Source: a virus
Direction: 5' to 3' (one strand)
DNA length: 22,437 nt
IMG/VR virus record: IMGVR_UViG_3300009481_000119
Coordinates: 1-22,437 of that record
Part shown: piece after piece, positions 1,751 to 18,332 of the stretch
How the letters are laid out: the number at the start of each line of letters is the position of its first letter
Numbering within the stretch: the stretch's first letter is position 1
Made by a program: the position numbers and the translations under genes
The notes under the pieces: model-generated
What the model was told of the DNA's origin: nothing
What the model saw: the letters and a program-made list of their open reading frames with translations, nothing else
Databases searched by the model: none

Positions 1751-4142
1751 TTAATTTTTGCATTTGTATGTTGTTTCTTTGTGCAGCTAGTTGAGCAGTT
1801 TGTTGCAGCTTAGCTGCGTCTATCATAGATTTCTGTTCAAGCTTTGCCATGTCAAGCTCAGTTTTAGCTTGTTTAGCCATCGCATCAGCCATAACTCTTT
1901 GTCTTTCTATATCTATTTCTTCTTTCTTTAAATCAACCAATGGATCAGATCCTTTACCTCCCTCTAGGTATTCTTGCTCCTCTGCAACTAGTTGACCCAT
2001 AATCTCAGATTGCACCTGAGCTATTTGTTCTTGTATCAAATTATTAATTTGTATTTGCACCACGTCAGGAACTTGACCTCCAAATTGATTTGCAAGTTGT
2101 TCTAATTTTTCTCTATTTTTTTCCATAACATTTTTGACAGAGAGTTGTGATACATGTTCCAAAACATGAGAAGTAATATTGACTAAAACGTCTGGTATTG
2201 TTCTAACTAAGACAGAAGACATAAATGCCCTATGTGTTTCAATGTGTGCTACATGATCTTGATCTGGAAAAGCTTTTGCAACTTTTTTATTTAAAAGTTC
2301 AGCATTTTCTATCACAGGATCTTTTGGCATCGGTCTTGCTGGTGGAGGCAAAATTGCATCAATGTTTTGTATGCCAAGTGCTTGATACATTCTTCTATAA
2401 GCCTCATAAGTATTGTGAATTTGTGGATTAGTTTGTGCTAATTGTAACTGTGCTTGAGCCATTTGTATTCTTTGTGACATAGAAAAAATACTAGGATCTG
2501 ATACAGGAATGATATCTACACGATTATCAAAATCTGTTTGTTTAATAAATCTTTGTCCACCTGGAATATTGTAAGGATATTCTGGAGGCAGATATAATTG
2601 AAAAATTCTAGCAAGTAATTTAAACTCAGTTTTTTGTGCGTAATGACATCTTTTGTGGATAGCACTCATAACTTTAGTGCCTTGTTCAATCATTGCCATT
2701 GTAGTCCCTACAGGATTAGCATTATTAGAATCTGCTATTTTCGCATCAGCAACAGCTGCAAATCTTTTACCTGCATCTACACAAAAACCTAAAAGCTGCA
2801 TTAAAGTTTGACTAGGTTCTTTGTAAGGCAAAGGAACAAAATTTTGTCTTAGGTCTCCTCCTGGTGCATCCACGTCTCTAAATTCACCTGGTTGTAATGG
2901 GTTGTCGTCATCACGAATTCTAAGTCCTCTAGCTTTGAAACCTGCTGGTAAATTAGAAAGTGTGCCCGCATCGATAAGTTGACGAAGCGCAGAGGTAGCC
3001 GTTCTGGATAAACCACCGAGCATGTGAATAAGACCAAAACCATAAAAGCCAAGACCTGGCAAAAAACGATAGTGTACAAAGTATTGTATCTTTTTCTTCT
3101 TTGGATCTTCTTGTCTATAGTTACGTCTAATGGATAAAACTTTTCTAGAACCTTCATCAATAGTAACAATGTAAGGAAGTTTAACACCAGTAGGCATATT
3201 GTTCAAACCTAGATCTTCAAAACCAGGTATGTCTAAATCACAATGCATTTCTAACAAAGTACATTGATCGTTATATTGATTGTCGTTTGGTGTTACACCA
3301 TCAATCTTATCGTACTTTTCTTGTATTGAATCTTGTTTATTTATAACATCTAATTCAACGTCTCTATAAAAACCACTTACTTGACTTTTTCTTACATCAT
3401 TTTTATTTTGTTTTAGTACGTGAGTTATTCTAGGCGCAGTCTCTAAATCAGTAGAATGATACGGCACTACTAAATCCTCTACAGGAATAAATTTTGCTAC
3501 TGCTCTATCTAGGTTAGAATCATAATAAATTTTTTTAAATGCAGATCCTGCTAATGCTAGGAAGAATAACATTTGATCCATATCAGAATCATACTCCTCC
3601 ATTACATCTGTAATTTGATAGTTCATAAATTCACGAACTCTTTTTGCTTGTTCTTCTACTTGAGGATTTTCAGCACCTACAATATTACATTTTACTGGAC
3701 CTCCTGCTGGTAGCAATTCTTTGTAAGCTTGTGCTTGAAACTGTGTAACTGATTCTGCTAACAATGGATGTGTAACACCACTAGCGCCCTGAAATGGTTG
3801 AGATCTATCTTCATATTTAAATCCTAATAGATCTAGACCTTGAGTGTATCCATGTTCCCAATCACCTCTTGTTTCTTTGTCATTAAGATAATCTGACATT
3901 AAATCAGATGAAATTTTTTCTAGTTCTGTTTCATCTATAAAATCTGCTAAGTTGTCATCGAAACCTGGACCTCCAGTCATTTGAGGTTGACCAAACAATG
4001 CTCCGCCATCTTGTAACATTTGCACGTCGCTCTGTTGTCCTGTGTTTACATCAACTTCAACAGTTCCTCCTGCATACTGATCAACACGCGGCAGTTCTTC
4101 AACCGGTGGATTGATTGGATTAATTCGTTTATCTATTGCCAT
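1731..4142 (-). CDS. Portal protein
   Basis: 803 residues. The protein has an acidic N-terminal region, then the conserved block at 115-147 ([21 protein letters not shown]) seen in large podovirus-type portal proteins, a central mixed region, and a Gln/Lys/Glu-rich C-terminal coiled coil (about 690-803) that could form the barrel or tail contacts. The portal is the dodecameric ring at one capsid vertex through which terminase drives DNA. The start overlaps the TAA of the upstream 671-residue gene by one base. Context (TerL two genes upstream in the operon) supports the assignment. The length is at the upper end for portals and includes the coiled-coil extension. Confidence 0.85.
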
Positions 4143-6157
4143 TACACGCTCTTCATGAATATTTCGATGTCAATTAGGGGATCACCCATGTCATCTTTTG
4201 TTTTACCACCCTTTTTAAATTGTGGCAAACCAATCTTTTTAAAGAGCTCTAAGTCAAAGCCCTCTGCTCTTAAATCGATATACGGCATATTAATTAATAT
4301 TAGGTCTCTATCTGCTCCACCGACTCTTACATGATTTTTTAATCCTGGAAAATTTTCTATAGCCTGAACATATCTAGATGAGGTAGCCTCAGAATAATCA
4401 TCACCAGGTCTTCTACTAAATTTGTATGTTCCATCTCTTTTTACTTGTAATTGAACTGATTCTATTTGCTTTTCATTAAGACCTAAAGCTTTACCTCTTT
4501 TAGTAATATCTTTGTTAATATCTTTAATAAATTTATCTATTCTACCATCATATATAGTTTTGAATCCTTTATATGTATCTGAATTAGCATCGCCTGCATT
4601 CTCATAAACAGCAACAACATCTGCTGGAGACCATCCTAAATATGCATCACCATCAGCAATAGCTTTCTCTAAATTATCTTTTACTACTTGTTTAATCCAA
4701 TATTGTGCACCACCTGAAAAAGGATAAAAATTATCACTAGCAGTTTCATAAGATTCAGTAGAACCCTCTGGTGGTTGAGATCCAGGAAACTTTATGTCCG
4801 TGCTTTTTATTTTACCATCAAAGAGATCTGTTTGAAGTTCCATCATAACAGTTCCTTTTTGATCATTAGCATAATTTATTAATTTAGCAGATCTAGAAAA
4901 AGCAAAATCATGACCTACTGACGGATGACTACCTTCATGCTGCGAAAGTTTTGAAGGCTGATCATACTCAGGTTTAAATGTGTGTGATAGTATCTGGTAA
5001 TTTTCAGATCTTAAATTAGGAAAAGCAATAGACATATGCTCGTTAGTAAATTGATTGTTACGTAAAGTTTCTGTTATGTTACTAATTGAATTTAATATTT
5101 CATTATTTTGTCTAGTTGCATTAATTGTAGCAGAATCTAGATTAGGATATTCACTCATTAATGTTTCGGTCATCTCAGGTATCTTACCGAGCGCAGCTTC
5201 TGCATCTTCTCTATTAGTAGCTTTTTGCATTTCTTTTAGTTGATCTGTAACTAAATTACGATACTGATCCATGAATTGACCTAGTGGTCCTGGACGGAAA
5301 ACCATATTCATGTTTTCTAATCGTGTAATTTCTGTTCTTAGATTTTGTGGAAGTAATTCTTGATCTTCTCCTAATTTTTTAGCTGATCCTTCTGCGTAAC
5401 CAAAAGCGATTTGATTTGGTCCAGATTGTAGCAATGTTACTAATTCTGATGCAGTGTACTTATCTTTATCCGAGCCACTAGCGATCATGTTATTTAAATA
5501 ACCCATTTGACCAGAATCTCTTAATTCTAAAGTCAAACCTTTTTGAGGATCCGAAAGTTCATTACTCCATTGATCAAGGGTTTTCTTTTCGTTACCTGAA
5601 TAATTTGCTTTTATATAATCTTCTGTTTTACTAAATCTTTTGTTTATAGATTTATCGCCAATATCTATCTCATCTATGTTTTCAATCATCTTTGTTGGAA
5701 CTAAGGCTTTAGATTTTTTCTTATCTCCCATTGTTAAAATAAAATCATCCGCGGTTTTTGGCTCGGGTATAGGAGTAACATTACTTGAATCAATTTTTGG
5801 TTGTTCTACAGTAATATTAGCATCATCTAAAAGACCTTTAGGTTCTGGAAGAGGTGTTATTAATGGATCGTTTTTTACAGGCACAGGTTTTAATCCTGTG
5901 TTTTTTAATCTCTCAGCTTCCTCTTCTTGTCGTTTTCTAATTTCTTCTTCACTTGGTGCAAACACTTTACCTGAAGGAGTGTCGATCATAGGACTCACAG
6001 CTGTGGCTCCCATAGCTAGTATCGGTAACAGATCTCTTAATGCACCTATCTGATCACTTTGTAGATTTGGCTTTTGTATTTGTGGTAAAATATCTAAAGC
6101 ACTAGGATCATCTAGTACACTGGCTGCCCCTGCTTGAAACTTTTTCTTTTTAGCCAT
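4142..6157 (-). CDS. Large phage protein with possible polyvalent-protein (LPD-like) domain
   Basis: 671 residues. The N-terminus is basic and Pro-rich and looks disordered (1-140). The middle (about 170-370) is helical and charged. From about 415 to 560 a pattern appears that resembles the large polyvalent protein-associated domain whose hallmark is 'FxWSR ... EIQSDW ... PF ... GW': here HDFAFSR (416-422), ELQTD (440-444), YPF (478-480), LGWS (507-510) and YKGFKTIYD (529-537). The C-terminus ends in GLPQFKKGG, a motif common in marine phage virion proteins. Its position between TerL and portal suggests a virion or co-injected protein. This LPD match is pattern-based, with Thr in place of the usual Ser and no Trp after it. 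Function is otherwise unknown. Confidence 0.75.
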   Translation of the reverse strand: MAKKKKFQAGAASVLDDPSALDILPQIQKPNLQSDQIGALRDLLPILAMGATAVSPMIDTPSGKVFAPSEEEIRKRQEEEAERLKNTGLKPVPVKNDPLITPLPEPKGLLDDANITVEQPKIDSSNVTPIPEPKTADDFILTMGDKKKSKALVPTKMIENIDEIDIGDKSINKRFSKTEDYIKANYSGNEKKTLDQWSNELSDPQKGLTLELRDSGQMGYLNNMIASGSDKDKYTASELVTLLQSGPNQIAFGYAEGSAKKLGEDQELLPQNLRTEITRLENMNMVFRPGPLGQFMDQYRNLVTDQLKEMQKATNREDAEAALGKIPEMTETLMSEYPNLDSATINATRQNNEILNSISNITETLRNNQFTNEHMSIAFPNLRSENYQILSHTFKPEYDQPSKLSQHEGSHPSVGHDFAFSRSAKLINYANDQKGTVMMELQTDLFDGKIKSTDIKFPGSQPPEGSTESYETASDNFYPFSGGAQYWIKQVVKDNLEKAIADGDAYLGWSPADVVAVYENAGDANSDTYKGFKTIYDGRIDKFIKDINKDITKRGKALGLNEKQIESVQLQVKRDGTYKFSRRPGDDYSEATSSRYVQAIENFPGLKNHVRVGGADRDLILINMPYIDLRAEGFDLELFKKIGLPQFKKGGKTKDDMGDPLIDIEIFMKSV

Positions 6158-13533: not shown

Positions 13534-13549
13534 ATATAACTATTTATAA
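13534..13549. promoter_or_regulatory. TTATAACTNNTTATAA-type operator (15 of 16 matching)
   Basis: Plus strand ATATAACTATTTATAA, one base from the consensus of the three promoter copies. It overlaps the stop codon of the helicase gene and lies 37 bases before the small membrane protein ATG. No clear -35/-10 pair surrounds it. Confidence 0.45.
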
Positions 13550-13950
13550 GATTTTTTCAACTGTTTTATCCAATCTTTATATTGTTCGTTAAGAACTTTA
13601 TGAGAAATCTTGGTTTTGCTTATTAAATTAGTAATGATATGCTCATCGACTGTGCCTGCACATTGTAGATCTATGTAAGTGCACTTATTGTTTTGACCCA
13701 TTCTATGAATTCTATCTTCTGACTGAACTCTAACTTCAAGATCATAATTGTTAGAATAATAAATAATTGTATCTGACACAACTAGATTTAATCCATAACC
13801 ACCTGTCTTAGGATTAGCCACCAAATATTGTAGATCTGACTTTGGATCTTTAAATCTTTCTATAATGTTTGTTCTCTCCTGGTCCTTAGTGCCTCCATAA
13901 AAAGCTTCTACAACAGCAAAGCTTTCATACTTCTTCCTTATTGCTTTCAC
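13540..13950 (-). CDS. SNF2-like helicase, C-terminal half (after in-frame TGA)
   Basis: 136 residues from the GTG at 13950. Homology-like sequence continues upstream in the same frame to 14010 (KVIIWATYRHNIERI, helicase motif IV region), immediately after the TGA that ends the N-terminal half. Helicase C-terminal domain motifs are present: PKTGGYGLNL (motif V, 47-56) and QSEDRIHRMGQ (motif VI, 76-86). The piece cannot hydrolyse ATP by itself. There is no Shine-Dalgarno before the GTG, so independent translation is doubtful. Together with 14011-15030 it makes one 496-codon reading frame. Either a nonsense mutation, a sequencing error or readthrough explains it. Confidence 0.7.
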   Translation of the reverse strand: MKAIRKKYESFAVVEAFYGGTKDQERTNIIERFKDPKSDLQYLVANPKTGGYGLNLVVSDTIIYYSNNYDLEVRVQSEDRIHRMGQNNKCTYIDLQCAGTVDEHIITNLISKTKISHKVLNEQYKDWIKQLKKSYK

Positions 13951-14010
13951 AATTCTTTCAATATTGTGCCTATATGTTGCCCAAATTATTACTTTGCCAT
14001 CAACTTCATC

Positions 14011-15030
14011 TCAACAATCTAGTAAAGATTCTAGTCTAGGTATCATACCTTTATCATCATGTAAATCTACAGTCATACCCTCATCAGTTGTTAAGAAGCC
14101 ACAAGCGATCTGATGTAATCGCATCATCATAGTAAGCTTTGCCACAGCTGTGGTTTCTTCACCTGTATCTAATCTTGCTATTTGCATTGCTTGCATTTGT
14201 AAATATGCATCTTCTTGTTTTTTATTCATCGATACTTCTCTTGTAAGATATGTCTTATCAGGTAAATCCAAACAATCTTGTTTACGAACTCTAAAAGAAA
14301 AGTTTTGTAATTTATTATTTAGCTCATGTATGTTTTGATATCCTAAAACTTTTTGATAAGTGTAATCGGCAGCGTAACCTGTTTCCATTACACAATACCT
14401 ATTTTTATATGACCAGTAACTTGGTTGACCTAAATGATCTAAATCAAGAAACGCACATTGCGAAAATAGATCTAACGGTGAACGGGTCACGGGCGATCCA
14501 GTCAAGATCCTACGGAACTGGGCCATCGCACCAAGTTTTAATATAGCTTTAGTTCTAGCAGCTTTAGGATTTTTAATTGTTGTAGACTCATCAATAGCAA
14601 ACATTGATGGATATAACTGTAAAAATTTATCAGCTATCTTTTTACCCTTGACACTTGAGAATGCCTCAACGTTCATTAAAAAAATTTTAAAATTATCTAC
14701 ATTATTATAGAAAAAATCTTTTCTACGTCGCATTTCTTTTTTTGTATCTGTGGGATCCCAATCATATACATCATAGTTTTCTACAAGTGGTGACATGTGA
14801 GCTGGCAATTGTTCTACTTTCCAGTTACGATAAACACCTTTAGGTGCTACGACAATTGCGCCTTTAATCTTCTTTGTTAAATATAATAAGCAAAGATTAT
14901 CAATTAAAACCTTTGACTTGCCAGTGCCCATCTCCATAAAATAAGCAAAAGTTTTCTTATTCCAGGATAACTTTAATGCCTTATGCTGATGCTCGAACGG
15001 CTTCGTTCGAAAACGATACGATAACTCCAT
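14011..15030 (-). CDS. SNF2-like DEAD/DEAH helicase, N-terminal half (ends at in-frame TGA)
   Basis: 339 residues. ATPase core motifs: Q-like FEHQHKALKL (12-21), Walker A MGTGKS (34-39), motif Ia APKGVYRNW (62-70), motif II DEST followed by KNP (147-155), motif III TGSP (177-180). This is the ATPase lobe of a SWI2/SNF2-type superfamily 2 helicase, widespread in marine phages and probably used in replication or recombination. I chose the ATG at 15030, preceded by AAAGGA; a TTG at 15054 is less likely. The TGA at 14011-14013 (codon 340, between LLDC and DEVDG) interrupts the frame just before the C-terminal lobe, which follows in the same frame. Confidence 0.8.
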   Translation of the reverse strand: MELSYRFRTKPFEHQHKALKLSWNKKTFAYFMEMGTGKSKVLIDNLCLLYLTKKIKGAIVVAPKGVYRNWKVEQLPAHMSPLVENYDVYDWDPTDTKKEMRRRKDFFYNNVDNFKIFLMNVEAFSSVKGKKIADKFLQLYPSMFAIDESTTIKNPKAARTKAILKLGAMAQFRRILTGSPVTRSPLDLFSQCAFLDLDHLGQPSYWSYKNRYCVMETGYAADYTYQKVLGYQNIHELNNKLQNFSFRVRKQDCLDLPDKTYLTREVSMNKKQEDAYLQMQAMQIARLDTGEETTAVAKLTMMMRLHQIACGFLTTDEGMTVDLHDDKGMIPRLESLLDC

Positions 15031-15140
15031 TTGTCCTTTATACTTGAAAAGCAAAGAAAAAACAAATAAATGTAAAAAGACTTGAGATTGTTCACTTTAT
15101 GATGACTCCTTATAAATCTCAGGTTAAGGCTAAAAGAATT

Positions 15141-15170
15141 AGGGCGCTTTCGGGTGCCCTTTTCTTTTTG
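15141..15170 (+). terminator. Intrinsic terminator, rightward
   Basis: AGGGCGC and GTGCCCT pair (one G-T wobble) around a TTTCGG loop and are followed by TTTCTTTTTG on the plus strand. It lies directly before the rightward promoter, with no rightward gene to its left in the window, so it would stop antisense transcripts from the leftward block or end a small RNA in 15055-15140. Confidence 0.65.
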
Positions 15171-15832: not shown

Positions 15833-16684
15833 ATGGCAACTAAAGGAATACCTGCCACTAAAAAATCTACAGCAGTAGCTGAGGTAGATGAGGCATTAGA
15901 ATTAATAATACAAAACGTTGGAGATGGGTTAGGTAATGTTACCACCCAAGATATACTAATACCTAGGTTTCAAATCTTACAACCTATGTCACCAGAAATT
16001 AGTGACAAGACAGTAAAAGGTAATACGCCAGGTAATATAATTAATAAAGCTAACAAAGAAACATTTGACGGCGAGGCAGGCATACGTGTTGTGCCTTGTG
16101 AGTTTTTTAGAAATTATGTTGAGTGGGAGAAGAGAGGACAGACTTCAAGAAAAGCACCTGTTAATACTTATCCTGCAACATCTGACATAATGAGTAAAAC
16201 CAAAAAGGATGAAAAAGATAATTTAAATTATCTACCTAATGGTAATTACATTGAAGAGGTTGCGAATCATTTGGTTGTGGTTCTAGACGAAGATGACCTA
16301 CCGCTATCTAAAGCTTTGATCACTATGAAAGTTTCACAGATGAAAAAAAGTAGAATGTGGTTGTATATGCAAAAGACTGCTATTCTAAAGGTAGCTGGTA
16401 GAGTCATTCAAAATCCACCAAGTTATTCGTTTATATACAAGTTAGGTACCACATTGGAACAAGTCGGCGGTAACCCTGTACATAGTTGGGTTATTGAAAG
16501 ACTCGATATGGTATCAAATAAGGATACCCTAGAATCCTGCATCAGCTTTGCTAAATCATTCCAGCAGGGGGAAGTTGGAATAGCTCCAGATCATGATGAA
16601 GAGCAGCAGGAGGAAATGGCTGATGTCACTCCAAACTCTAATAGTGCACAGGATGCTGAAGAAATTTCTGGCGTGAAATTCTAG
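15833..16684 (+). CDS. Putative single-stranded DNA-binding protein
   Basis: 283 residues with an AGGAGG Shine-Dalgarno. The N-terminus is flexible. The core (about 30-230) is beta-rich (IPRFQILQPMSPE, GIRVVPCEFFRNYVEW, HLVVVLDEDDLP). The C-terminal 35 residues are highly acidic and end in a hydrophobic aromatic residue (ISGVKF). An acidic tail with a terminal Phe is typical of phage and bacterial SSBs, which use it to recruit replication partners. Context (primase, helicase and polymerase downstream) agrees. Sequence similarity to a named family is from memory only. Confidence 0.6.
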   Translation: MATKGIPATKKSTAVAEVDEALELIIQNVGDGLGNVTTQDILIPRFQILQPMSPEISDKTVKGNTPGNIINKANKETFDGEAGIRVVPCEFFRNYVEWEKRGQTSRKAPVNTYPATSDIMSKTKKDEKDNLNYLPNGNYIEEVANHLVVVLDEDDLPLSKALITMKVSQMKKSRMWLYMQKTAILKVAGRVIQNPPSYSFIYKLGTTLEQVGGNPVHSWVIERLDMVSNKDTLESCISFAKSFQQGEVGIAPDHDEEQQEEMADVTPNSNSAQDAEEISGVKF

Positions 16685-16824
16685 GGTACAGGTTCGTAAC
16701 AATGAATGGGAAAACTATGATGACCTCATGTGTACCGTTGGTTGTTGCGCGTGGGTGTGTTGAGCTTTGTTCGTATAAAACTTCGCCGTTTTATTGCTCA
16801 GCACACACCACTTACATGAGGTCA
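16685..16824 (+). promoter_or_regulatory. Structured 5' leader sequestering the primase ribosome-binding site
   Basis: The 142-base gap before the primase ATG (16827) contains nested perfect or near-perfect stems. P1 is TGACCTCATGT (16721-16731) with ACATGAGGTCA (16814-16824), whose right arm holds the GAGG Shine-Dalgarno. P2 is GTGTGTTGAGC (16755-16765) with GCTCAGCACAC (16796-16806), one G-T. P3 is ATAAAAC (16775-16781) with GTTTTAT (16788-16794) and a TTCGCC loop. An alternative pairing GGTACA (16685-16690) with TGTACC (16731-16736) competes with or knots P1. It looks like a translational switch; ligand or protein is unknown. Confidence 0.65.
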
Positions 16825-16826
16825 AA

Positions 16827-18332
16827 ATGTTCAAAAAATTTAAAAATATATTTAGTGGTTTAGAAAGAGCGCATGGTGAATACATCGCTGGCGATCTTGA
16901 CGAAAAAGGCAAAAAAGGCGGTAAAGCCTTCATTAAGAAAACGCCTGTTACAGATGATATGTGGAGCGCTCACTTACGTGGGGACAATCCTTCTCTTGGC
17001 ATTGTTCCTATCAATGATGACAGCATGTGTCGTTGGGGGTGTATTGATGTGGATACTTATCCAATTGATCATAAGGCCATCGTTGAAGAAATACAGAAGC
17101 TGGAGCTCCCGTTAGTAGTAGCTAGATCAAAGAGTGGTGGAGCTCACATTTTTTTATTCTTATCTGAATGGGTGCCAGCAAAAATTGTTAGAAGTAAATT
17201 AATAGAATGGTCAGCGGACCTCGGGCATGCAAACACAGAAGTCTTTCCAAAACAAATAAGCATTAACACCGAACGTGGTGACGTAGGTAATTTTCTTAAC
17301 TTACCATACCATGGTGGAGATGACTCTTTCCGTTATGCATTTAACGATGCAGGCGAAAGCATGACATTAGAAGAATTTTATACAAGAGTCGACGCGGTGT
17401 CGTTGACTAAAAGTCAATTAACAAAAAGAAAAGCTAAAAGAGAAATAGCTGCAGAGATGGATGATGGTCCTCCTTGTTTACAAACATTGATGTCAATGGG
17501 TATATCAGAGGGTGGACGCGATCAAGTTTTGTACCAGTATGCAGTTTATGCAAAGAAAGCTTTTCCAGATTCATGGCAAACAAAGATTGGTAAATTTAAT
17601 TATCAATACTTCTCTCCAGAGCTATCAATAGAACAAGTTAACAAGACAATAAAACAACATGAGAAACAAGATTATCAATACAAATGTAAGGACCAACCTA
17701 TGTGTTCTGTTTGTAATCCAGTGCAATGTAAACTTAGAAAACATGGCATAGGATCCGCCTATCAACATCAATTGACAGATCTAACTAAATTAGAAAGTGA
17801 TCAACCCGTTTGGTTTTTAAATGTTGATGGTAAACGTATGGAGTTAGATACAGATACTCTATACGATCAAAACAAATTTAGAAAAAGATGCATGGATGTA
17901 TTGACAGAATTACCACCAAGAATGAAAGAAGTTGATTGGTCAGCAAAAGTAAATTTTCTTTTAGAAAATTGTGACATCATTGAAATGCCTAAAGAAATAA
18001 CGAAGCAAGGTAGATTCGATGAACATCTTAAATCATTTATGAGAGAGAATGGCGAAGCATTGTCTATTGATGAGGTTTTAATTGATAAAGTGTTTACGGA
18101 TAAAGATGATGTGTCCTGGTTTACTTTAAGTGCGTTAGAATCTTTTTTAAAATCAAGAAAGTTTGCAGACTATAATGAAACACAAATCTGCGGTAGAATA
18201 AGAGAACTAGATGGTGGTAGTAAAAAGAAAAGAGTAAAGGGTGAGCTAGAGCATTTGTGGTATATGCCCTCATTTAATTTCGATAATACACCTTTGCCAG
18301 TGCAGAGTTTAGAAGACGAAACACCTTTTTAA
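16827..18332 (+). CDS. Archaeo-eukaryotic-type (AEP) primase, TOTE-like
   Basis: 501 residues from the ATG at 16827, which has a GAGG Shine-Dalgarno; a TTG 33 bases upstream lies inside the leader stem. AEP catalytic motifs are visible: CIDVD (72-76; D74, D76), SKSGGAHIFLF (101-111; H107), and EVFPKQ (138-143) with GNFLNLPYHG (154-163), resembling AEP domains of TOTE-type systems. A four-cysteine cluster (C287, C293, C296, C301; CxxxxxCxxCxxxxC) could hold zinc or an Fe-S cluster. The C-terminal part is helical and ends LEDETPF. It would lay down primers, or act as primase-polymerase, for the adjacent PolA. A one-base gap separates it from the helicase gene. Confidence 0.75.
   Translation: MFKKFKNIFSGLERAHGEYIAGDLDEKGKKGGKAFIKKTPVTDDMWSAHLRGDNPSLGIVPINDDSMCRWGCIDVDTYPIDHKAIVEEIQKLELPLVVARSKSGGAHIFLFLSEWVPAKIVRSKLIEWSADLGHANTEVFPKQISINTERGDVGNFLNLPYHGGDDSFRYAFNDAGESMTLEEFYTRVDAVSLTKSQLTKRKAKREIAAEMDDGPPCLQTLMSMGISEGGRDQVLYQYAVYAKKAFPDSWQTKIGKFNYQYFSPELSIEQVNKTIKQHEKQDYQYKCKDQPMCSVCNPVQCKLRKHGIGSAYQHQLTDLTKLESDQPVWFLNVDGKRMELDTDTLYDQNKFRKRCMDVLTELPPRMKEVDWSAKVNFLLENCDIIEMPKEITKQGRFDEHLKSFMRENGEALSIDEVLIDKVFTDKDDVSWFTLSALESFLKSRKFADYNETQICGRIRELDGGSKKKRVKGELEHLWYMPSFNFDNTPLPVQSLEDETPF

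Follow-up and report, generated by a model that had tools for sequence, protein, structure and literature searches.

In phage T4, a pseudoknot of about 28 nt located 67 nt upstream of gene 32 enables gp32 to repress its own mRNA, and the ribosome-binding site lies in an A+U-rich stretch free of structure (PMC535899, PMC3014915). This operator varies between relatives (T4, RB69 and T2) and is absent in RB49 (PMC535899, PMC3014915), and, according to a 2010 review, the T4-type gene 32 pseudoknot is possibly the sole viral example in translational autoregulation (PMC3014915). The RNA described here resembles that operator in being a pseudoknotted RNA in a phage replication operon beside an SSB-type gene; however, it measures about 130 nt, follows its SSB-like gene (a Pam3 gp34-like gene, hereafter gp34), precedes a primase gene and holds the Shine-Dalgarno sequence of the latter within one of its helices, P2. 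The mRNA pseudoknot is indeed present, as the covariation of the crossing helices P1 and P2 indicates, but it does not lie in the SSB-like gene's own leader, and membership in the T4 gene 32 operator family was therefore rejected for the wrong gene position. From its sequence, we infer that the RNA may work like a pseudoknot translational operator.

STAXI, a small pseudoknot that comes as two or three repeats, is likewise found near SSB genes and other DNA-handling genes (Weinberg 2010, PMC2864571). The RNA studied here shares this neighbourhood, but it is single and larger, and no Rfam 15 family (riboswitches, ribozymes, STAXI, manA and wcaG among them) matched this RNA or the related loci searched at the gathering threshold, in line with the earlier note, which could name no riboswitch class for it; at E-values up to 10, chance snoRNA matches alone appeared. 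SAM-II and preQ1-II are H-type pseudoknot riboswitches that act on translation and carry the Shine-Dalgarno sequence on their last strand, preQ1-II having an inserted hairpin as well. The present RNA also bears the Shine-Dalgarno sequence on the last strand of its pseudoknot and, like preQ1-II, has an inserted hairpin, whereas its helices are much longer, it has no sequence or covariance match to either, and it is restricted to one phage gap. Literature searches of open-licence papers returned no description of this RNA or of a second family, type I, which occupies the same gap in relatives.

Uncultivated, largely marine-type phages have two knotted RNA families with covariation support at their SSB-like/primase boundary; neither family is in Rfam 15, and terminator-like hairpins sometimes take their place. 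The start of the replication genes appears, from sequence comparison, to be gated by RNA structure, which offers a testable system for how phages adjust SSB and primase to each other and gives structural biology a new class of pseudoknot.

The gap between the gp34-like and primase genes

The stretch of DNA that was analysed (the window) is a virus record of 22,437 bases. Its rightward operon encodes, in order, a Pam3 gp33-like protein (DUF7307), the Pam3 gp34-like protein, an AEP primase, a UvrD-type helicase and a family A DNA polymerase (PolA). The genes abut, overlap or are spaced by 0–9 nt with a single exception, the 142 nt at 16685–16826, and the ORF map confirms the earlier description of this stretch as the sole large gap in the operon. 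The helicase and PolA genes of the window start at sites that abut or overlap the preceding stop codons (TAA-T-ATG and TAATG) and have no evident Shine-Dalgarno sequence; the primase gene, unlike them, has one of its own, GAGG, which lies inside P2. The features of the locus are as follows.

15833–16684, + strand: gp34-like protein gene (Pam3 gp34-like, PF23977) with an SSB-like acidic C-terminal tail; upstream neighbour
16685–16826, + strand: gp34-primase gap, holding the entire RNA element (ORF map and homologous gaps)
16685–16690, + strand: GGUACA, the upstream partner in the earlier note; not conserved
16695–16703, + strand: P1 5′ strand CGUAACAAU, 10 nt past the gp34 stop codon; covaries
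16705–16709, + strand: P1b 5′ strand AAUGG, an extension of P1 that encloses the P2 5′ strand (MFE fold)
16721–16732, + strand: P2 5′ strand UGACCUCAUGUG, the anti-Shine-Dalgarno, in the P1 loop (stem search, covariation)
16735–16739, + strand: P1b 3′ strand CCGUU, within the conserved UGUACYGUUG (MFE fold, alignment)
16741–16749, + strand: P1 3′ strand GUUGUUGCG (stem search and covariation)
16751–16765, + strand: P3 5′ strand, GUGG followed by GUGUGUUGAGC (MFE fold; compensated changes among close relatives)
16775–16794, + strand: apical hairpin AUAAAAC-UUCGCC-GUUUUAU
16796–16811, + strand: P3 3′ strand, GCUCAGCACAC-A-CCAC with one bulged A (MFE fold, stem search)
16813–16824, + strand: P2 3′ strand UACAUGAGGUCA, containing the Shine-Dalgarno sequence (sequence, stem search)
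16818–16821, + strand: Shine-Dalgarno GAGG of the primase (sequence); L004 and L005 retain GAGG or GGGG
16827–18332, + strand: AEP primase gene (PHROG 21866, AEP-TOTE domain); downstream neighbour

Helix P1 pairs CGTAACAAT with GTTGTTGCG and is extended by AATGG/CCGTT (P1b). P2 pairs TGACCTCATGTG with TACATGAGGTCA over 12 bp, namely 11 Watson-Crick pairs and one G-U, and covers the GAGG located 5 nt 5′ of the primase ATG at 16827. P3 (GTGTGTTGAGC/GCTCAGCACAC) comprises 11 bp including one G-U, is lengthened by GTGG/CCAC and is followed inward by the 7-bp apical stem ATAAAAC/GTTTTAT. The stem over the primase Shine-Dalgarno sequence, the enclosed 11-bp stem and the 7-bp hairpin had all been recognised in the earlier note, and all of them are present and covary; however, their strict nesting is refuted, since a stem that had been missed, P1, covaries as well and crosses P2. 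The P1 loop contains the 5′ strand of P2, whose 3′ strand follows P3, and the two helices therefore form an H-type pseudoknot into which hairpin P3 is inserted. The further upstream pairing GGTACA/TGTACC is present and shares one base with P2, as had been noted, but it is unconserved, reading GGTTACA in L002, being absent from L004 and L009, and being partial in L005.

The folding z-score of the window leader was −2.47, with 2 of 200 shuffles equally stable. Crossing stems as strong as P1 and P2 arose in 16 of 200 shuffles of the window leader, a frequency at which the window alone is suggestive and its relatives decide, and in 1 of 200 shuffles each for L004 and L005. No intrinsic terminator, taken as a G+C-rich stem with an immediate U-tract, was reported at 16685–16826, where AAAAUG follows P2. 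A stimulator of stop-codon readthrough or frameshifting was ruled out, because the gp34 frame meets another TAA a few codons past its stop.

Two other observations were made to the left of the gap. A SNF2-type helicase gene at 13540–15054 (− strand) contains one in-frame TGA at codon 348 (LLDC*DEVDG), whereas the frame is open in most relatives, with leucine at this position; either a point nonsense change or a sequencing error is involved. In addition, the + strand of the divergent region that precedes the rightward operon contains a terminator-like hairpin (AGGGCGCTTTCGGGTGCCCT TTTCTTTTTG) at 15141–15160.

Covariation among window-type leaders

The window-type leader, which we named type II, was collected from eleven IMG/VR contigs by protein and pattern scans, and its subclades are A (the window, L001, L002/L003 and L058), B (L004 and L009) and C (L005–L008 and L139). 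In L004 and L005, the sequence 3′ of the primase stop (after position 5506) is unlike the abutting helicase start of the window, which indicates that gene order or spacing varies within the clade. P1, P2 and P3 rank among the strongest stems in every subclade and occur at corresponding places: P1 reads CGTGAGTTA/TAATTTGCG in L004, where it is continuous with P1b (15 bp), and CGTAAGCAAT/ATTGTTTACG in L005, where P2 reads TGACCCTTTATG/CATAAGGGGTCA.

Because MAFFT failed to align P1 across the subclades, the helix counts come from a hand-made structural alignment, which is biased toward structure and covers few independent sequences (three subclades): in P1, pair 7 is C-G or T-A and pair 8 is A-T, T-A or G-T; in P2, pair 6 is T-A or C-G, pair 8 is A-T or T-A and pair 10 is G-C or A-T. 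Pairs 11 and 12 of P2 also vary on both sides, but pairing there is partial or by chance in L004 and L009, which have partly lost P2 past the 7th pair and gained two upstream A-U pairs instead. Several covarying pairs each were found in P3 and the apical stem, and two-sided changes in P3 occur even among the window, L001 and L058, whose leaders are about 92–93% identical. Between L004 and L005, the flanks are 92–94% identical and the leaders 74%, with P1, P2, P3 and the apical stem all kept. A Shine-Dalgarno-like AGG, GAGG or GGGG lies inside P2 in all three subclades, and the apical loop UUCGCC and the segment UGUACYGUUG (Y aside) are invariant in the clade.

This comparison shows that compensatory changes have preserved the pairing in P1, P2, P3 and the apical stem, that P1 and P2 cross, and that P2 contains the Shine-Dalgarno sequence. 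The earlier note had made its proposal of a structured leader hiding the primase Shine-Dalgarno sequence depend on compensatory substitutions in homologous leaders; these were found in all four helices, and the proposal is borne out for the window's clade. The window leader is real, conserved and new as a sequence family. On this basis, the gap RNA is rather likely to be a cis-acting mRNA structure that sets primase translation relative to that of the upstream SSB-like gp34.

Type I RNA and hairpins in the same gap

Relatives of the window carry in their gp34-primase gap another RNA, type I, of about 100 nt with four covarying helices and two pseudoknots. The route to this family, which is diverse, led through L078 and L079 (primases 48–49% identical). 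Its strands follow the order P1 5′, P4 5′ (YGGRG), P2 5′, P4 3′ (CYUCR), a short YYA joint, P3 5′, P1 3′, P3 3′, P2 3′ and CA. In P2 and P3 together, 97.2% of cells are paired, compared with 73.6% after shuffling and 24–37% in slid controls, and two-sided changes affect 16 of the 19 pairs. P1 forms 163 of 170 pairs, compared with 124 on average after shuffling, and P4, which was fitted by best complement and is thus the least independent of the four helices, is fully paired with C-G/T-A and G-C/T-G exchanges. P1 starts 1–4 nt past the gp34 stop and P2 ends 16–23 nt short of the start codon, so that the fold takes up the room that separates a terminating ribosome from an initiating one; this distance to the ATG also means that hiding of the Shine-Dalgarno sequence is specific to the window's clade and is not the common denominator.

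A covariance model of the type I P2+P3 core (R1) found one copy per type I record. The type I pattern scan of all viral contigs returned 24 stretches, 18 of which are real (17 R1 matches plus L160) and lie in the gp34-primase gap wherever context was read, the rest being without R1 support. R1 gave no match to the window or the type II loci, and homology of the two types is therefore not claimed; they have in common the slot and the crossing of P1 with P2, and form separate clades on the primase tree. A third knotted version is possibly represented by one sequence, L030, whose gap before the primase (about 3875–4000) contains the crossing stems TATTTCTAAT/GTTAGAAATG and TAGGGGCGAA/TTCGCCCCTA (0 of 200 shuffles as strong); the near-identical L032 has a plain hairpin in the gap.

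All of the 43 remaining gaps examined carry a hairpin, with at least four T in the next 9 nt in 29 of them. These hairpins of sister phages occupy the identical genomic slot and probably serve the same task, limiting flow into the primase, but each is a single G+C-rich hairpin, with or without the T-rich tail, and has no knot. Two T-tailed hairpins replace the type I RNA:

L169, 2462–2500: T-tailed hairpin
L238, 2460–2500: T-tailed hairpin

Both sequences nest inside the type I clade on the primase tree and share with part of it the sequence GCTGTCT ahead of the start codon, which gives the impression that one device was exchanged for another. Such replacement, together with the presence of hairpins in every one of these gaps and their frequent T-tails, would suit an element acting on the transcript, in which the knot is a barrier that pauses or terminates the polymerase, or forms and protects the 3′ end of the gp34 mRNA, and thereby stands in for the intrinsic terminators of sister phages, so that primase is limited by transcript level and the Shine-Dalgarno pairing is incidental. 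We consider this unlikely, since no U-tract follows P2 or P3 in either the window type or type I, and the pairing of P2 to the Shine-Dalgarno sequence is kept in all three type II subclades.

Proposed control of primase translation

If the gap RNA controls primase translation, as we prefer to think, formation of P2 would block 30S subunits and keep primase translation low. Judging from the gene layout of the window, the helicase and PolA would follow the primase by translational coupling, because both lack an evident Shine-Dalgarno sequence there and abut or overlap the upstream stops; such coupling does not obviously hold in L004 and L005, given their differing sequence after the primase stop. 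Relief would correspond to a P2-open state, reached when P1 and P1b outcompete P2 or through binding of a phage protein, and a ribosome or a phage protein would probably bring it about. Forced folds with P1 and with P2 had nearly equal energies in the window (−48.2 and −48.0 kcal/mol) and were at most 0.2 kcal/mol apart in L001, and the P1 fold was favoured by 4–8 kcal/mol in L004, L009 and L005. With about 1–2 and 2–6 unpaired nt around P3, a full 15-bp P1+P1b beside P2 looks strained by our estimate, which makes it plausible that P1 and P2 are a two-state switch instead of a coexisting knot. The window RNA, type I and the terminator-like hairpins may share the task of throttling expression from gp34 into the primase, which fits the finding that relatives hold type I or a terminator-like hairpin in the same slot.

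A metabolite riboswitch controlling primase translation, an option raised in the earlier note, is improbable. The covarying pseudoknot over the Shine-Dalgarno sequence does resemble small translational riboswitches, and the UUCGCC loop and a UGUAC segment are invariant in the clade, but the Rfam searches were empty bar the chance snoRNA matches, and neither RNA was found outside the gp34-primase gap: for the window type, viral pattern scans returned the same clade plus two coincidental matches, and the scan of genome contigs gave just three chance matches, all in unrelated contexts. Type I, moreover, has very few invariant unpaired bases (the A before P3 and the CA after P2). The cores of known ribozymes are richer in such bases, which makes a self-cleaving ribozyme cutting the gp34-primase message even less probable, although the type I fold is compact and doubly pseudoknotted, begins 1–4 nt past the stop codon, and has a strand order (P1 crossing P2 and P3, P4 crossing P2) that recalls double-pseudoknot ribozymes. 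No Rfam ribozyme matched, and the helix order is unlike that of HDV; an HDV-like ribozyme, which would have a short P1, a P3 hairpin placed between the 5′ strand of P2 and the 3′ strand of P1, and a catalytic C in J4/2, was rejected by inspection of strand order together with the empty Rfam search. Least probable of all is a DNA-level role as an origin of replication or a site of primase loading, with the fold formed by single-stranded DNA, a reading suggested by the adjoining SSB-like and primase genes and by the discussion of STAXI as possible structured ssDNA (PMC2864571), as the type I helices contain 23 G-T (G-U) cells versus 4 A-C cells, so that the sense-strand RNA is the folded and selected molecule, and P2 coincides with the Shine-Dalgarno sequence in the window's clade.

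Returning to translational control, we favour, by analogy, protein feedback among the options of the earlier note. The likeliest relieving protein would be the gp34-like SSB, followed by the primase itself, and SSB sensing is the leading idea because of the autogenous repression that T4 gp32 exerts by way of its mRNA pseudoknot. It is conceivable, though we would not expect it, that marine phages of this group evolved interchangeable knotted RNAs (window type, type I and perhaps L030) that read their own SSB level and gate primase translation, with an origin separate from that of the T4 operator; if true, RNA feedback would link ssDNA coating and priming in a manner more intricate than the T4 gene 32 operator. 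The tails of gp34-like proteins, in the window and in homologues, are acidic and in most cases terminate in PF, as in bacterial SSB. A structure model of gp34 (pLDDT 77) is OB-fold-like; it gave no Foldseek match with a significant E-value, and a PDB sequence search with gp34 gave no match. In VIA-align, the model best matched a PhiC31 integrase-RDF chain (Z 8.2), followed by the RB69 and T4 gp32 cores (Z 5.9 and 5.8), middling scores that represent a weak fold match, and the predicted protein may to this extent resemble the gp32 core.
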